Assembly: GCF_947623445.1 (NCBI RefSeq)
Contig: NC_135248.1
Coordinates: 14,765,820 to 14,829,819 of the forward strand
DNA from: Clavelina lepadiformis
Taxonomy: Eukaryota; Chordata; Ascidiacea; Aplousobranchia; Clavelinidae
DNA length: 64,000 bases
Direction: 5' to 3'
A model generated the notes under the pieces. The model saw only the letters and a program-made list of their open reading frames with translations, had not been told where the DNA came from and ran no database searches. How positions within the stretch are numbered: position 1 is the stretch's first letter; the number at the start of each line of letters is the position of its first letter. The position numbers and the translations under genes were made by a program. Shown here one piece after another: positions 15,501 through 58,230 of this stretch.

Positions 15501-18500
15501 TTTATACTGATTCCAGGTACTTTCTGCGGCATAGGCGGCAACCGCTGAGCAATGGCAGTTGTCTCTTTTCATTAGATCGCATCTGCAGGCGTCAAGCATA
15601 CACGCTTGGTAATATTCAGTATGGTCAATGTGAAACCTGGAATTGTTGAATGCCTCTGAGAGCAGCACGTTGCAAACTTTGTTCTCCAGGACTGTCTGCA
15701 TTGTCTTTGAGCCGATTTTTAAATGTCAAAAATTAGCCACAGTGTACAGATTAAGTGCATCATAATACTTTTATGAGAATGTATCATATTATACCATTGC
15801 CACAGCGTTAATAAGCAAGAGGGGTTTTCCCGTTGAAATTTAAACGTCATGAAACGCTTACCGCTTCCCTCTCTTCCTTTTCCGGGCATTTTGCTAATTT
15901 GTTGGAATAGCTGCATGTCCTGCCCTCCTCCTTTTGTACCCATTTATTCGCCAGGGCCACAAAGTCGCCATTGACCACATCGTCATCAGGATCTCCGTTG
16001 TAATCTCCGCACAAACCTTCCGTGTCGGATTTGTAATCGTCCGGCACGGAGAGTAATACCGAGAAGGTGTCCAGCGATATGGCGAGTTTCACGTGTTCAA
16101 CTTTCACATAAACCACTCGCCAGCTACTCTCGGAAACACGAAACGACATATCGTTGAACGGGATGTCGATTCTGCGAACATGAAAAGGGGTTGGAGAAAG
16201 TAAGCGCGGCAAACGATAAACTTGTGTATTGCGCGCCGATGGATGAACTTCTCGGTGCTGCTATATACTTCGCTAGGAAAATTTTGCTTGCGACTCTTTG
16301 AGACCGATTTAAAAACTATCATTTATGCTGTTTATGAGATCCATGGCATTTACTGATCAAACGAAAAAATGTAACAACGTAAAACAATCTGAAATGTTTT
16401 ACTCATTATAATCCAGTTTCGCTTTTCCGTCGTCAAAAATCTCCACCTGGTTGGCCCCAACTTTTATTTTCACCAAATGGTTACAAGATGTCGACGAACT
16501 AACGCAGTTGTCTTTGCGACGAACATAAACCTTTGAAGGAATAAATCGGCATTTACCTTATTTACAGTGGCTTAAACATAAACATGTTCTTGTGGCTAAT
16601 TAATCTGGCAAAGGTAGTGACAACAACTTGCTTATCAGTATTGCACTGTTATTCACATTTCGCCAACCTAAAAGCGTGTACGCATCAAGGCTGTAAAATA
16701 GAATTACCGAAATGGCCAAATTGGTGGTGATACTCTTTCTACCGAACATCTTGTACAGGCAGGATCCGGTGAAGGTGCCGAATCTCCGGTCAAAAGTTCG
16801 GATGTGGTCCATACCGAACAACGAGCAGGTTGCAGTCTTTGCTGTCTTGTGTTGTGTGAAGACGGGCTTGGGTTGGTTAAAAACTTCACCATCAACGTCA
16901 AACATTTCTGCAGAAGATAAAACAACGTTCATGATTACCTAACAACAAGAATAAAAAAAAGAGCGGAAATAATACGCAATTCAGCCACAAATTACAAGAT
17001 CACGTTAAGTTAAGTATTCCAAGTAATTTTATTATAGCAGCTCAACTGTACTGTCACTTACTATAGCTGCACTTGTAACCGGCGTACGGAAATAAGCATT
17101 CGCAAGAATAGTTTCCGTTGCAGATTCCGCCATTCAGGCAAAAACCATCCGGACAATTAGCTGAAAAACATATGAACTTGACCCTAAATTTAGAAATTTA
17201 AATTGACCCTAAATAAATCTTTACTACCACAAATTAATAAACATTTCACTACATCATGCATTTAGGGATAGACAAACAGACGTATACTTGACAGACAGGC
17301 GTATGTAACGGCTCAACAAACATGGACGTTCAAGTAAGGTTCTTCGACCACAGTACTTATAAAGTTCTTACGTTAACCGAATTAATAACCGAACAGACGA
17401 AAACTTACGTATAAGTTTTCGTTTATACGTTATGAGGAAGCCTTTGTCTTGGAAACTGAGGTCGGACACAAACTGCAACTTGAATTTATTTTGAGTTGAT
17501 TCAAACTGGCCTCGGAAGGAACGTCCGCAGTATTTATTTTCACTGTTCAAAAATGGATCCAAAGCGAGAAGGTAATCGCTCCTGCGTTACGATGAATATA
17601 GCAGTTGTTATATGAGCAAAAAGGTTTTAAAAAAAAATTTGTTAAAAACTTGTCAGAAATAAAGTGAAAGGGCATTTCAGATCGACTGCATCGATTACGT
17701 GTATTTGAAAGATCGTCATTGTTGGGCAGCCCACCCATTGCAAAATGCCGGGTAAATGTAGGAACTTTGGTGGCCGGCTCACAGACAAAAACACAAACGA
17801 AATCAACCAAAGTTAAACGCCACGCGAAATGGTCGCAACCCAAATATACTTACTTGCATGTAGGACTCTCCTGGAGTTGAAACCCCTGTGTGGTGAAGAC
17901 CATTTTATAACCTTCGTCTGTATCAAAGTTCCACGTACAGTTTTTTTCTGCTGGGTAACTCAGTGGATAGCGCGGTGTTGCGATGTTACCCGGCTCATTT
18001 CCAACATAGATATCGCCACCACAAGCTAAAAAAACACTAAGTTGAAATTGTGCAATCTGTTTTTTTTATAGGGTCTAAGGCAGGGAGGTCCAACCAGCGG
18101 CCCGCCTGAGATTTATTTTTGTGCGGCCCGCTAGTCATTTTCACTCCAAAAGTATGTACTTCATGCACCCATTTTTCTTGAAATTTAATAGGTTTTGCGG
18201 CCCATTCAATTATTTCAAGTGACAATGCGGCCCACTATAATAAAAGGTTGGACATCCCTGGTCTAAGGGAAACTTGCAGAATTAACGAATGAGACTTCTG
18301 ATCCCAAGCTTCTCAATTGTAGATTAAAGCGATAACAACCAAGCATTAAAAACGTATTTACTTAAGCCAACAAAATGCAGAAAATTTAACATTAATAGCT
18401 TTAAAAAGTTATTTTTTAGCCAGGCAATCAAAACACGTTTAGAAAAACAACTCACGTAGTTCGGGGCAAAGGTCAGAGTTGCAAACCAAAATCTGCTCAT

Positions 18501-32192: not shown

Positions 32193-35100
32193 ATGGCAAC
32201 GTCAAAAGACGAAGATCGGTTGTCAGGTGTATGATCTTATGTAATAGTGAATTAACCTGTAGCCTGACGACTAAGCTGTTTAAAGTATTGCCGTTTGCTT
32301 TTGTAGGACTTTGTCAATTTTGTACGAAATACATTGCAGTTACGACGTTTACTACCGAGTCCTCATCCGGAATAACCGACAGTGATGTAACAATCATCGG
32401 AACCGGTGAATTGATAAAAGAAGTCGAAAATGGTCTGAAAGCAAGTGGCTACACAGTGGCCATTCCATTATGTGGTGGTCGCCTTGAACAGGAAAATCTT
32501 ATGTCTCGTGTGCGTCACGCGAAAACGAAGTGAGTATATTGCTAACCTTTGAGATTATATTTTGTTCTTTCCGTGTGCAGTTTGGCTTAAAATCGTACAC
32601 GCATCGGTAGGCGCGAGCGTCATATTCAGCCTGGTTATCACTATGTCATATGATTTCCTAAGCAAACATAGACAGGGAAGTCCACTGTTTGTCTTACTGA
32701 CTTACTGTGCCTTTACGTCAAACGGTGTTTTGTAGAAGCTATTTACTTTAATTTTACGTTTGTGTCACACGACTGTTTCTAACAGGGTTATAATACTGAC
32801 CAAAGAAACGGCCAAGGAACTTCAAGCTTCATTTGAGATTTTATACCAACCGTTTTTGTTACAAATTAAGAACACAATCATTTTCTATGAGAAAAGATTA
32901 CCACAAAGTAAAATCAGACAAACATTGCGTCATTTTCTGAGGCTAAAATTGCCTTCAACATCGTCTGAGCTCATGCAACACATCGCTGAATTTATGGAAG
33001 CGCAAGAACACGCAGGTAACTGTTTGAAGAACTGATTTAGGTATTTTAAGGTAGTAGCCTTTAGCTTGTTGTAGCTTGTAGGCTACTGCAACTGTAGATG
33101 TATGAACAGCATGGGATTTTAACTACGTCACTACCAGACGAGAGAGTTTTGCGTCGAAATGGATTATATTTGCGAGATCGGTAAACAAACAATTTTTAAA
33201 TTAAATTAGGCAATAAACCTTAGCTACTGTCAACATTATAGCCTACGCCGCATGAACAGTTGGCGGTCTGCTTACCCTGTAGATTAGCATTCTCGTCAAC
33301 ATGGGAATTTCCCTTGTTAAAAACTTCGGTTTCGCTGCGCTCTCACTTACCATTACGTTGGCTTTTATTGTGATATAGTGGGGCCGCCGGGCACAGGCAG
33401 ACCCTGAAACAGTGGTTCTCAACCGGGGTGCCATTTGCGTTTCGCTAGGGTGCCGCGAGCTATTGCACATTATTCCCTAGTCAGGATATATGGTAGCGTA
33501 CTGTGATGTTATTTTGAAGTCATAAACTTTTATTATACCGTAATACCGGTACTATGTTTGAGGTCACAAATGTTATTGTATGAGACTTTAAATCGTTAAA
33601 TAAAATGTTCATGATATGGTACCGGTACTGTAGTCTATTGTGTTTTTCGAAACTATTTTCAATGTAGCATTTTGATTTCAAACTTTACACCTATATGATG
33701 CGAAGCTCTTAGGTTCGACTGTGGGTGCCGCAAAATCTAGTTGTTGTTTGCAGGGTGCCGAAAGCCAAAAAAGGTTGAGAACCACTGCCCTAAAACCTAT
33801 TCACTACACAACCATACCAACGGCAACACTACAGATTTATTGTTATAATATCCTATATGCCTAAAGTTACGCGTTGTAGAAGTATGGGCAAAAGCTTATT
33901 TCCCAAATCAAACAATCTACTTTTCATTTTTAACTGCTGAGGTTTTGCTTTCGAACAGATAGGGTTTACGTACACTGTTGCCAGCATTTTTAGTTCTTGT
34001 TTTGTTACCAACCAGTAGTCACATCACTTGCAAAAGCTCCAACTCAGTTTCTTATACATTGGAAAACATCTAACATACGTGTAGGTTTTGTAAGACCTAT
34101 AAATTGAACAAGAATTTTGTAAGCACTGTTAGTCTACTCTACGTTGGAATGCAAGCTATAGGCTATTGCTGGACGCTTGCAAATCGCCATGCTTTTTTTA
34201 GCTAATACAGCTCTTGAAAGAACTAGCAGTTTCTTTTGTATTATACGTCACTTTAAGAAACCTAAAATGTAAAATGCCAGCTATTCAAAACTGGCATAAC
34301 TTTTGTTCTAACTGTACTTACTTTTTTTTCTTGCAGCGCGTATAAATCTCATTGAGCCAAATGATGTGAAAAATCATTATGTGGAATTGCTTATCCATTC
34401 AATATTAAATCCGACTGGGTTGACAACACCTGCATCACTTTGTGTGGACCTTGTCCAGGAAAAATTTACAGCAAAATATGGCTCATTTACATACGTTTAT
34501 GCTCCTGGGTTTAATTCGTTTGTTAATGAACGTCCTGGGTTTAAGATAAGTCAAGGCCTGCTTTGTCAAACAAATGACGGTGCTTTACATGCATCTGGCT
34601 GGATGGAGAGAACGGAAGCTCTTCGAACCCCATCTAATGGTAGCAGCTTTTATAATGCCTTACTGGCCAAAAACGTTGCTCGTATACCAGTAGACCCAAA
34701 CAATGAATGCGCGTCAGCAGCTGAAAGAAAAGAAGACAACCTAAGTAATAACAATCGCAATGCCCCTTGTGATACTACACGCACAGGCGAATGGGTTGTT
34801 GAGTCCATAAAGCAACAAAATCTTCCTCCCAAATCAGATGAGATGGAATGGTTGTCGAACCAACTGAAAGTAAAGGATGAAGATCCATCTTATTTTCTCC
34901 TTTGTAGCAAGCTAGATTCAGGAAGTGATTTAAAGGGCGTTGCAAATATACCATGGCTGAAAGTGTTTGACTTTGATCGTGAAAGTAGAAATATTGGTCT
35001 TTTGTCTGGTATTGAAAAATGCATTAAGTCTACCAGAAATTTGACAATATCCACTAGCAATGATGTTTCAAAACCCTTGTCAGAATGTGCAACTGACTGG

Positions 35101-38100
35101 TATTTTCCACTTGGATTTTCAGATAGACAAGACACCATACATGATAGTCAACCGTCGAAGTGGTATTCCTCAGTTAAAAACAATTTAGAAAACCAATATT
35201 TAGAAATGAATGATTTTTGTTTGTTGAAGTCACTACCTGTATTTCTTATATTGTGGTACAGCAAAAACAAGGATACATTGCAATGCCTTAACTTGGTGCT
35301 ACTACATCTGTACTCGGTAATAAAGGATCCAAAACGAGTCATTCTTTGCACTGATGAAAATCCGTCGGAAATTCTAAATCAATTCATTTATAAAGACGAG
35401 CTATTATCTTCTGTTCGTGTCATCCCCATTCAAGATGTATGTTACTGCCTAGCTCAAGCTGGTATTCCACAGCTTCCTAAGCCTGGCACAATATACCTGC
35501 CGAGAGCTATAAATGATGAATATCCAAACTTGACCTCCGTGGAGGTTACAGACGATATTCTCTGGATTCGACAATTTATTGAACTTTTACCAATCCGCAA
35601 TTTAGATGAAGTTAAACAAAAAGAGTCCATGGATGCTGGAAAGGAGTTTGTGAGAGGTGGAATTATAACATGGGATGAACTCGCAATGGGTAATATTGCT
35701 GTTAATAGAGATGCCCAAAAGCTGATTTATAGTCAAATTCAAAAGCACATCTTGGATGAAAGAAGAAGCTTGATCATAAAAATTTTGCATGCACCTGGTG
35801 GTGGGGGAACAACCTTTGCTCGTCAGCTTCTCTGGTATCTGCACACCGAGGTTCCTTGTGGAGTCGTACAACCTTCTCCAATGCTACCTACCACACATCT
35901 TGTTGAATGTGTGGAATTTCTCTTTGAAAAAACTGTGCTACCAGTTGTGCTTTTGATTGATGGCACAAGTGATTTTGAAATAGAACAACTCTATGGAAAC
36001 TGCAACTATGCGATAGTCATTTTACATGTGCAAAGATATATCGGAGACATCAAGAATCGCTATGATTCTGTTCGCCAAACTTGTTATCTTCCCGGGAGTG
36101 TTAGCCAGCAGGAAGCTCAAAAGCTGTGCAAAGTCTACTCCACATTTTCTCCAAGTCGTAAAGAGGCGCTGAAGTCTTTAACAAGCAACTGCAGTGATGA
36201 AAAGCTTCACATATACGAATATGGTTTGACGGCATTCAATCATGAATTCAAAGGTGTTAAAAATTATGTGAATGGTTATATGGAGCTCCAAAATCAAGGC
36301 TTTACGTTACAAGCACTGCTTCCTTGGCAAAAAGTTGTTGCTTTTTTATCACTGGTTATGTACTATGGTCAAAGCGGTTTGTTGAAAGCTGTTTTTCATC
36401 ACTTGATAAAACCTGAAGACCGTAGTATGTATGTATCATTCAATGATTTAAATTTTTCTGGGCAGCAGTTCGTTATCGAAAGCAATGGAGAATGGAAAAT
36501 TAATTATTACATCATTGCCAAGGAAATTTTGGAGCAGATTCTTTTGCGGTCAGGTCCAAAACATGAAACCAGCCAACACCTTTCCGTAGAAGCGTGTAGC
36601 AATCTACATGAATTGGTCATTGACTTCATTTTGATGCTAAAAGAAGCTATGAAGGGAAGCAGTTCAGATCGTATCGTAAAAACTTTGGCTGACACTATAC
36701 TTAGACGGGATTACAAGGATATGCTGGACATAAATGACGAGCGAAAATCTTTGTCCAGATTGCTCGAAAATATACCTCTTTGGGAGAACAGGATCAAAAT
36801 TTTGCAAGAACTAAGTGAAGCTTTTCCTGACAATGTTGAATTCCGTGCACATTTAGGACGGTTACATAATCTTAATGGAGATTTTGCCAGTGCTCAAGAA
36901 TCCCTAAAATATGCTCTAGAACTGCGCACAAAGGCTCGAATTGGCTCTCCTGACAACATGCGAGCTAGAATCCTTCACATGCTTGGGTTTGCGTTTCTGC
37001 GCCGGGCAAAATCTATCGTAAATGACAGACATGGTATTCAACCGAGGGAAGTAATACCTGACTTATTGCATTATGTTAAGGAAGCAATTAAGTACTTTAA
37101 TGAAGGTCGCCGCTATGCAACATACAACTTGAGTTATGGCTACATTGGTGAAGTGAGAGCTAGGCTTTTTGTTGCTGGATATGTCCACAAACACATTCCA
37201 GGTGGTTGTCTTGCTGCTTTTAACAATACTCTCCAAAATGTTGCCCTGAGCCAGTTCATCAGAGAATCTCACTCAGCCTGTGATCAGAGATTAGCAGAAT
37301 GTCAGCGCTATACCAGTGATGCTGAGCTGAAAAAGATTAACCATTACCTGTTTTCACTACAAAAGTTCCACCAGTTCTACAAAGGAGTAACAAGCAGATT
37401 AAAAATATGGAGCAAGTTCAATAGCAACATTCCAATGCAGAGAAGTGAAATTGCAAGTCTCAAAATGCAATACAATTCATCAGAAAACGTACAAGCTCCA
37501 TCGCTTGAAAATGTAAACAACAAGAGAGATGTGGATAAAATCATACGATTGTATGAAAAAACCATTCAAGAAATCTTCTTTAAAGATTTGAAAGATGTTT
37601 ACATATCTTTGGATATGCACGGTTGGCTTGAGGCCATTCGCCATCCTTTAGCAGATGATCACCATGAGCTTGTCAACGTTTTGCATATTGTGGAAAGGTG
37701 GAAAAGCAGAAATGAATTGGGCTTTGCAACCTTTTACCTGTATGTTATCTATTTTGTATTGGCTATGTACTACCCTGGGCAAAAATTAAACATGGAATAC
37801 ATCGATAAGTGCAAAGAATTGCGCCAAAGCATGAAGGCCAATACCAACTGGACACTTAAGAAGCTGTTCACTCAAGAATGGCTTGCTGTGCATGATGATC
37901 TCACCATTCGCAAATTGGTTTCCCGCAACAAACTGGGGGAGTGGGACAAAGACAAAAGATTCTGGAAGGATCCACAAAAGATAAAGTTACTTCAGGTGTG
38001 CGCTGGCACAGTCACAAGATCGTCTCATCCCCTGCGTGGATCAATTGCTTTAACCATTCCGTTCCAATTTGCCCGTCATTCTTTGGAGGTCTATTTCTTA

Positions 38101-38313
38101 CCGATTCGATATGGTCTTGTTGGAAACCGCTATTCAGAGCAAAGTCAACGTGTTGAGTTCTTCATCGGTTTCAACTACGAACGAGGCGCGGAAGCTCTAT
38201 CGGTTCGCAAGCTCGAGCGAAGTACGTGCAAAAGATGTAGAAAAGTTAAAGAAATCATCACCCTGCATCAGGAAGAAAAGGAAAAATGCATGGACTGCAT
38301 TCAACAGCGTTGA
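32193..38313 (+). CDS. samd9-like: SAMD9-family STAND-type NTPase with a TIR-like N-terminus
   Basis: Four exons: 32193-32226, 32307-32529, 32786-33015 and 34337-38313, in continuous phase, give 1,487 aa. Residues about 38-145 alternate DVTIIGTG / ELIKEVENGLKASG / YTVAIP / LMSRVRHAKT / KVIILT / NTIIFYE, a TIR-like beta-alpha pattern where vertebrate SAMD9 has a SAM domain. Residues about 164-225 resemble a winged-helix segment (YVYAPGFNSFVNERPGFKI). The SAMD9 core follows: FVRGGIITW, a P-loop GGGGTTFARQLLW at 650-662, Walker-B-like LLIDG with D704, a helical region, TPR-like repeats from about 994, and a C-terminal OB-like segment from about 1377 (VEFFIGF). The tail has two CxxC pairs (1460/1463, 1480/1483). 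Vertebrate SAMD9 proteins are cytosolic antiviral, growth-restricting factors. The start ATG is the first in frame and its short exon joins in phase. Confidence 0.88.
33016..34336 (+). other. Third intron of the SAMD9-like gene
   Basis: A 1.3-kb intron bounded by GTAACT and TTGCAG. It is the longest in this gene and carries the hAT-like element at 33410-33787. Nothing else recognisable is present. Confidence 0.8.
33410..33787. mobile_element. Non-autonomous hAT-like element in a SAMD9-like intron
   Basis: The 378-bp element begins cagtggttctcaacc and ends ggttgagaaccactg, perfect 15-bp inverted repeats common to hAT MITEs. Flanks ccctgaaa (33402-33409) and ccctaaaa (33788-33795) match at 7 of 8. 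Subterminal ggtgccgc motifs occur near both ends. No transposase is encoded. Confidence 0.9.
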
Positions 38314-56000: not shown

Positions 56001-58230
56001 TGATAAAATAGAAATCGTTAGCCGGGTGACGAAGAAACGTTGGTGTTTTTACCTGTCTGTTTGGAAATGTTTTATCGCTGTCGCGTTTTTACCCCACTCA
56101 CCATAACTTTGTTTTTAAAACCGGTTGAGCAAATTTTATATCGAAAAGAAGTACATTATAGCTTAACTTTAGAATGTGGTTTGTCAAGTCAAGTCATGTT
56201 CACCTTGTAAGTTCTCTCGAAATTCTATCACAACACCAAACAACCAAGATAATCTAAACTCCCCGTATACTTTGGTCGTGTTGGCACGATAGGGATCTTT
56301 CACTTCTTGATCAAATCTAACATAAACGAAATCACAGATTCAGTAAAGATTATCCCGCCTTATCACAGGAAAGTTATAACGCTCGAGGAAGAATTAGAAC
56401 TGTTGGACTCTCAGGCGAACTCGCTTTATCGGTCCTTTCTGGTCGAGATTGGCTCGGGGACAAGCGAAGATCCAAGCGAAGTTGACTACATCATAAACCT
56501 GGTATTGTTGCGTATGTAAATCTTGAGAGTAAGTTTTGTATCTTGGGAAATAGCAAAATTTTGAAACAGACTTTTATGATCAAAAAGCGCAGTTGTCTAT
56601 TTCACCTATCAATAAATTACGTGCATTATACCTTGTGTGTTTTCGTATATAAGTACTTTAATTTACATCCTGTGGCACACCTTGTCAGCCCTGCTCTGGT
56701 ATATTACACTGGCTACTGAGGAGAATTAGAAACTCATTAAGTGCAACGTTTGGTATCAAATGTCTTAAACAGATCCTCTTTCTGAACACAAACGAAGCAA
56801 GCATTGACAACGCCAAGAAGAGCTTGAACGCTTTGGATGGTGCAAGAGAAGAACTACAACGTGACCACGTTTTACCTCCGACTAAGAATTCCCCATCAAA
56901 ATCAAAGGAAGAGACACCGATGAGCGGGCAACTGGCTTCTCTTCGGAGCGAGATGCAATCCTTAAATTCAAGCATTGAGACGGCCACATCCATGCTGGAT
57001 ATGGTGGGTTTGATTCCTACTAAAAAAAGAACTCTTATCATCCAAATACTTCAAATACCTCCAAATACATTCCGAGATTGACTACATTCAATGTCGTTTT
57101 CTGCATTTCTGCATCCATGGAAGAACTAAATTTCTTCATCCGCACTTTAATCTTGATCTTTTTAAATAGTTTATCCCGAATCAGATTTTTTGAAATAGAT
57201 AAGATTTTACCAATTATCGTTAATTTATGACCTTTGCATTTTCCAGACAAGACATGAAATCGGGAGCATTCTTCCGGACTTCGACAATCGCGAAGAGATC
57301 GAGCGGATCGTGCTAGAGAGAGGCGAAGTCCTGGAGGAAATAAATCATCAAAGCCTGGAGCTTCGCTCGACTAGAGCAAAACAGAGGAACATCGCTGACA
57401 TCCTCGCTATCCTGAGAGCGGATCAGGATCTCTTGGCTCACAAGAGGACGATGTTAGACGGTCTCCTGGATGAAGTTCTTGCCATGGAAAAGTCAATGAG
57501 AGAAGAGTTATCGGAAATGATGCTGCAGCGATTTGAGGAAGGAATCCCCGGCGATCGTCGTGTTCTATCACGGGCTAAACGGAGCATGGCTGAAGAAGAG
57601 GCGATGAACGTTCGTCAGTTAACCGCTTTGTTCCCGAAACTTCTTCCTCCTCCAGAAAATAAACCTTCACCCACTTCACCTTTCCATAATGATCAGCTGG
57701 AGTTTGAAGAAGAGACAGATCCTCCTGAAATAATCGAAAAAGTCACAACCGCATCCGGACCCAACTCAGATGCTCTCAACACAAGCCGGACCCCGTGCAA
57801 TTTCACAGCCTGGGACCGGTTTGTGAATAACTTTGAGCGGCGGACTGCTCTTGTTACACTCGATCTCGTTGATATTGAAGGAGCCAGAGATGAAATCGAA
57901 ACTTCGTCCGTCCCCTCAAAGAAGATCTTCGTCCGTCCCCTCGAAAAAGAGAGCAGGATTAAGATCGACTTCAACAAACACGGACACGGGGTCTCCGCGG
58001 ATCCCGAGTCGAATCGCTATTCACGTAGAACGAAGAGGAGCGTTGAAGTAAAAAAATACGTCATCAGTGATGACGAAATAAAGCGTTTCCAACGTAAGAA
58101 AGCGGTTCGCGAATATTCCTTTATTGCGTCTCTAAAAGATTTCGAAGGCTTCCATGTAAGTGAAAGCTTCAAAGACACGTTCATCAAGTTAATAAGACGC
58201 AATAACCTGGAAATATACGGCCCGATGTAG
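53005..58230 (+). CDS. Unrecognised secreted coiled-coil protein with dibasic sites (exons incomplete)
   Basis: Supported exons: 56338-56501, 56773-57003 and 57247-58230 (stop 58228-58230), joined in phase. A likely internal exon at 55711-55842 is also coding-like. A possible first exon, 53005-53137, starts MKPTDTKWKVLLHFLYVVSW with a signal-peptide profile and a GTTAGT donor. Phases between 53137, 55711-55842 and 56338 do not match, so at least one exon is missing. The last three exons are Glu/Lys/Arg/Leu-rich with heptad-like helices, for example TLEEELELLDSQANSLY. They contain dibasic sites RAKRS and RRTKRS, one CNFT sequon, and a Pro/Glu-rich linker. I do not recognise a family. Secretion and furin-type processing are inference. 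Confidence 0.55.
53138..55710. other. Long intron or spacer within the unrecognised gene
   Basis: If 53005-53137 is the first exon this is its intron, otherwise intergenic. Sequence is AT-rich. ORFs at 54346-54675 and 54945-55142 look like chance. I could not find the extra exon needed to correct phase. Confidence 0.45.
57902..57951 (+). repeat. 25-bp tandem duplication inside a coding exon
   Basis: Two adjacent 25-bp copies (cttcgtccgtcccctc then aaagaagat or gaaaaagag) differ at only a few bases. Because 25 is not a multiple of three, copy one is read as SSVPSKK and copy two as FVRPLEK. Confidence 0.9.

Follow-up and report, generated by a model that had tools for sequence, protein, structure and literature searches.

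The gene at positions 32193 to 38313 of the window (the whole 64,000-nucleotide stretch of Clavelina lepadiformis DNA analysed here) is best read as a real tunicate SAMD9-family gene with a divergent TIR-like N-terminus, a presumed homotypic signalling module in the slot that holds SAM or DEATH-fold domains elsewhere; we put the probability of this reading at about 0.6. The head recurs on a divergent paralogue on contig C7 (LOC143465358, P0026), referred to below as the sister. New here, as judged from the predicted proteins, is that the window gene lacks AlbA_2, the tRNase domain, which the sister keeps. Our analysis suggests that the SAMD9 sensor platform swapped its output part during evolution.

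The window gene comprises four exons with GT/AG sites and intron phases 1, 2 and 1, and encodes an open product of 1,487 amino acids (Table 1). This bears out the exon coordinates and the in-phase splice to the body that had been proposed in an earlier note on this DNA. Codon statistics give the best score to the own forward frame of exons 2 and 3, with 6 of 66 non-coding open frames scoring as well for each; for sister exon 2 one reverse frame outscores the true frame, and the separation is poor. Intron 3 harbours a 378-nt element (window 33410-33787) with perfect 15-nt inverted ends, CAGTGGTTCTCAACC, which resembles a hAT-type MITE.

Table 1. Predicted features of the window gene, in window coordinates
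Feature	Position	Strand	Basis
Exon 1: start codon and 11 codons; followed by a phase 1 intron	32193..32226	+	splice model; sister has a similar tiny first exon, phase 1
Exon 2: TIR-like head, first half; followed by a phase 2 intron	32307..32529	+	homologous sister exon, intron at matching place
Putative TIR-like core, residues 37-159 (intron 2 inside the span)	32381..33005	+	profile comparisons, moderate
Exon 3: TIR-like head, second half; followed by a phase 1 intron	32786..33015	+	splice model; sister counterpart
Exon 4: SAMD9-family body and stop codon	34337..38313	+	homology, splice model
Conserved N-terminal domain of the body, residues 172-235	34363..34554	+	alignment; common to other tunicate-like records and amphioxus P0020
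SIR2-like region, named from its place in the family; conserved PWLKVFDFD motif	34885..35643	+	family position only
P-loop HAPGGGGTTFARQLLW, Gly at the usual Lys position	35788..35835	+	family signature according to the available text of PMC5445408
Walker-B-like strand LPVVLLIDG	35938..35964	+	by eye
TPR-like repeats, residues 983-1052	36796..37005	+	weak Pfam TPR matches
Region at the family's OB-fold place, residues 1381-1450	37990..38199	+	conserved with P0020 and P0026; fold by position only
C-terminal CxxC...CxxC, possible zinc ribbon	38227..38298	+	by eye

By homology, the last exon encodes a SAMD9-family body. A database search returned 25 proteins at E≤1, its own record included (24 others). 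Matches to the body comprise one Clavelina record at 49% identity (P0002), 17 ENA records at 37-44%, which are probably from tunicates, two Branchiostoma proteins at 29 and 32%, one of them named SAMD9-like, and three lamprey proteins at 29-30%; P0025, probably bacterial, is 21% identical to the window body. Over the core from the SIR2-like to the OB region the best E values among the Branchiostoma SAMD9-like and lamprey matches go down to 5e-174, and in a search of the PDB a human SAMD9 chain matches the body at E=3.4e-5. The P-loop reads HAPGGGGTTF and has both elements described as the family signature in the available text of PMC5445408, namely a Lys-less GGT/S in place of GKT/S and an upstream His. 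Family homology (amphioxus, lamprey and the PDB chain) and the Lys-less P-loop thus agree with the SAMD9-type STAND body assigned earlier. Pfam gives only weak TPR matches (best TPR_19, E=0.015, under the cut-off) and no match to the domain at residues 172-235, which by eye only resembles a winged helix (LOTUS-like). The SIR2-like and OB folds of the window protein are presumed from their position in the family.

By eye, the head follows the strand/helix order of a TIR domain, and from the comparisons below we judge it quite likely to be a very divergent TIR-like domain. Up to E=10, neither Pfam nor PADLOC nor NCBIfam yields a TIR match for the window head; the best library match of this head is a PADLOC ThsA model (E=0.031), and its few matches look like chance. 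For the sister head TIR_2 is the sole Pfam match (E=0.0081, 17.1 bits; E=0.0058, 17.6 bits when trimmed; E=0.12 within the whole sister protein), with no TIR match in PADLOC or NCBIfam. Neither head therefore scores above the cut-off of a curated TIR model, which for TIR_2 is 28 bits. We then compared the heads with a profile of 23 TIR sequences (7 TLRs, 12 other Clavelina TIRs, 3 bacterial and 1 plant), which replaced a first, too narrow profile of 17; a second Sinorhizobium TIR with an irregular-looking start was kept out of it. In unfiltered HMMER comparisons with the 23-sequence profile the sister head scores 13.0 bits, equalled by none of 2,000 shuffles and none of 271 ORFs, and the window head 3.0 bits, equalled by 66 and 4, respectively. 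The corresponding values with the 17-sequence profile were 7.2 bits for the sister head, equalled by 5 of 2,000 shuffles and none of the 271 ORFs, and 0.2 bits for the window head, equalled by 301 shuffles and 30 ORFs.

Profile similarity to TIR beyond chance emerges from hhalign, in which the window head scores 21.7, the sister head 24.6 and the pair of heads 23.8 against the 23-sequence profile. These scores are equalled by 0 of 200 shuffles for either head and by 0 of 250 column permutations of the pair; with the 17-sequence profile the pair had reached 18.9, with none of 300 permutations as good and the best of them at 18.8. Non-head segments of 130 residues, taken from nine SAMD9 proteins drawn from 26, do not reach 21.7 in any of 188 cases (best 20.0). 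The similarity nevertheless stays below that of genuine TIRs: nine of the 23, each left out of the profile in turn, score 36.9-123.9, far above the window head. Two other identities for the head, AlbA_2 and the SIR2-like region, were ruled out, since the sister carries the head together with both. The earlier proposal that the first 162 residues form a TIR-like domain thus stands as far as the hhalign controls and the TIR_2 match of the sister reach, and it falls short in that Pfam finds no TIR in the window head.

The failure of every library to recognise the window head as TIR would also fit a real fusion with a different kind of head, a small alpha/beta domain that is perhaps confined to the lineage and TIR-like only in its pattern of strands and helices. 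The hhalign score of the window head lies nearer to the best non-TIR segment than to the weakest genuine TIR, and searches of the PDB reached no TIR, single heads giving chance matches and the head pair none. We nevertheless consider a non-TIR head rather unlikely, given that the sister head on its own matches TIR_2 and nothing else in Pfam, that the single heads and the pair outscore all their shuffled or permuted controls, and that AlbA_2 and the SIR2-like region are excluded as its identity.

The AlbA_2 domain of human SAMD9 is a tRNase that depletes tRNA-Phe and acts as the effector (PMC13245274, PMC12331169); the domain is core to the SAMD9 family but lost in some members (PMC5445408), each according to the text available of these sources. 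We built an AlbA_2 profile from P0020 (amphioxus), P0021 (lamprey) and the sister; it recovers these three by construction, and it also recovers P0022 and P0024, where the match is cut short by their start. At its usual place the domain is absent from the window protein and from all of P0001-P0019, the best stray match (7.3 bits) lying far downstream in P0005. AlbA_2 is retained in the sister, in amphioxus and in one lamprey protein; the sister copy is without the acidic RE motif that directly precedes the conserved FxxDVVS in amphioxus and lamprey. The window body starts instead with the domain common to amphioxus P0020. Hence the description of the body as otherwise SAMD9-like needs correction, as the tRNase domain too is missing from its place. 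No SAMD9 chain came up when the PDB was searched with this profile of animal SAMD9 AlbA_2 domains, so that the tRNase catalytic residues cannot be mapped by that route; the best match was 9ylu (CbCash, E=1.8e-4), above any other chain.

Since the window protein is without AlbA_2, its output would have to pass through the head and/or the SIR2-like region. Together with this loss, a glutamate (Glu103) that by eye sits at the catalytic-Glu place of TIR domains, after the third strand, could point to a catalytic TIR which, when the STAND part brings copies of it together, would cleave NAD+ or produce a nucleotide signal in place of the lost tRNase. We regard such a catalytic head as improbable: the position lies outside the hhalign-aligned stretch, the sister has no Glu there (MAFFT places a gap, and by eye the residue is Gln), and a Glu is common also in TIRs without known activity. 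In addition, the available text of a 2020 survey (PMC7075850) names SARM1 alone among animal TIRs as having known NADase activity. NAD+ cleavage by the head is accordingly the less likely output, and the NADase role put forward in the earlier note finds no support. It is likewise doubtful that the two genes embody an effector swap, in which the sister would combine the tRNase with a non-catalytic TIR scaffold and the window gene would have dropped the tRNase and kept a Glu-bearing, NAD+-cleaving TIR; if true, the swap would have taken place inside a single antiviral STAND family of animals and would resemble the effector modularity of bacterial defence proteins.

The joining of the head to the body can be assessed at the sister locus. 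In a search for SAMD9 bodies we detected two loci in the genome assembly (209 Mb, 95 contigs; 210.1 Mb, mostly in nine pseudomolecules, in the available part of the published genome report, PMC10884593), the window and C7, whose bodies are 33% identical; the locus counts are lower bounds, and P0002 as query recovered the same two. The C7 body, too, is preceded by two exons, which are homologous to window exons 2 and 3. At both loci a phase 2 intron splits the head, after HAKTK in the window and after HAKFK on C7, and the next intron is a phase 1 intron. In BLASTP the two heads match at E=9e-9, with 24 of 77 residues identical (31%). We had spliced the C7 gene independently before the annotation was compared; the NCBI model LOC143465358 coincides with our splice from residue 6 onward and joins head to body, and the sister gene matches an NCBI Clavelina lepadiformis protein at 100% identity. 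The first five residues differ, as NCBI uses a tiny first exon, which was then located in the DNA and ends in phase 1 as in the window. Because the sister locus repeats the arrangement, with the same head, phases and order, and an independent NCBI model joins the parts there, the fusion of exons 1-3 to the SAMD9 body, as claimed earlier, is confirmed by homology.

Within the window, the first ATG in the frame of exon 4 comes only after the conserved start of the body, and the large exon is therefore unlikely to start a protein itself. That exons 1-3 are a separate small gene, as the stop at 33035 in the unspliced reading of exon 3 might hint, is highly improbable in view of this missing ATG, of the strong exon 4 acceptor in the phase supplied by exon 3, and of the sister locus. 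Elsewhere in the genome the window head finds only itself and one match at E=8, at a locus without TIR-like features, and the sister head finds only itself. A database search with residues 1-240 of the full-length protein gave 2,810 candidates, none at E≤10; this is a weak null, as database proteins sharing residues 163-240, P0003 for example, were also missed.

According to the available text of PMC13245274, SAMD9 is modelled as a STAND protein that is closed by intramolecular contacts, opens to oligomers on sensing and acts through an N-terminal effector. As described in the accessible part of PMC5445408, this N-terminal position is occupied by SAM in vertebrates and by CARD, Death, Pyrin or FIIND in other animals. 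For the window protein with a TIR-like head we envisage that the C-terminal half, with the TPR and OB regions, acts as the infection sensor and keeps the molecule in its closed state. Detection would open the STAND-like NTP-binding domain and lead to oligomerisation. The clustered heads may then form a platform for homotypic assembly or signalling, most likely by recruiting other TIR proteins; 62 PF01582 and 82 TIR_2 matches in the genome are possible partners. The sister carries this head on a body in which AlbA_2 is retained. What we infer here from sequence for the window protein is its TIR fold, oligomerisation, signalling and antiviral role.

Human SAMD9 is an antiviral tRNase, and the N-terminal domain varies between animal groups. 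Like SAMD9 and SAMD9L, the window protein has the SIR2-like to OB core, the Lys-less GGT P-loop with its upstream His, putative TPR-like repeats and a variable N-terminus (compared with the available text of PMC5445408 and PMC13245274); unlike them, it has a TIR-like head in place of SAM or DEATH-fold domains and is without AlbA_2. The sister shares the head, the intron phases 1, 2 and 1 and a SAMD9 body, but its body is divergent, keeps AlbA_2 and is without the domain at 34363-34554, and its head has no candidate catalytic Glu. Plant and bacterial TIR-STAND and TIR-NLR proteins (e.g. Roq1, a PDB match of a TLR TIR) also place a TIR-type head on a STAND platform, but their NTPase and repeats are unrelated or distant and their TIR is plainly recognisable. 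A metazoan TIR-STING fusion (PDB 6wt6) likewise joins an animal immune sensor to a TIR; the sensor is a different one, and the 6wt6 TIR matches TLR TIRs at E=1.1e-10, whereas the window head reaches no TIR in the PDB.

In the open-access literature, as far as its text was available, SAMD9, a TIR domain and a STAND NTPase come together only in work on bacterial Avs5. No open-access title on SAMD9 with TIR concerns a SAMD9-TIR fusion, a search that could miss subscription work, and the fusion is not found among the matches listed for SAMD9 with tunicate and TIR. The matches listed for SAMD9 with amphioxus or tunicate do not contain SAMD9 at all, and this result carries little weight. TIR is not mentioned in the available parts of PMC5445408 or PMC13245274. 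A TIR-like head in two divergent paralogues, one without the tRNase domain, would mean that the SAMD9 platform is open to rewiring towards a different output. It would link SAMD9 with TIR signalling in an invertebrate chordate, and it opens to direct test the question of which part of the family is the exchangeable effector.

A tree of 25 body sequences, from which the window's own record (P0001) and the partial P0019 were dropped, pairs the window with P0002 (100/99) among the ENA records. The C7 sister sits on a long branch and groups with the amphioxus and lamprey proteins (94/88, not starred). If this tree holds, which we take as a lead only, the head would predate the split of the two body types and would have been lost or replaced elsewhere. 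P0002, which NCBI lists under Clavelina lepadiformis, shares 49-53% identity with the window protein and has no closer copy in the genome; a cryptic species, mislabelling or a lost paralogue are alternative explanations.

Elsewhere in the window, the plus strand at 56662-58230 carries long open frames that contain basic clusters (SRAKR, SRRTKR) and match nothing in Pfam. On the minus strand an exon at 15850-16260 encodes a von Willebrand factor type D domain (E=1.8e-9), and further cysteine-rich open frames at 1-13 kb, without a Pfam match, look related to it. In the genome at least 82 exons match TIR_2, many in two dense clusters of near-identical copies at about 0.7-3.4 Mb on C4 and about 22.4-23.9 Mb on C5 (e.g. 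L050, L056, L048). For PF01582, 15 of the 62 matches lie in open frames of 987-1,021 amino acids on contigs C2, C3, C4, C5, C6 and C7 (L005-L014, L020, L023, L026, L027). The one such frame read fully is an LRR-TM-TIR Toll-like receptor whose TIR is interrupted by an intron.
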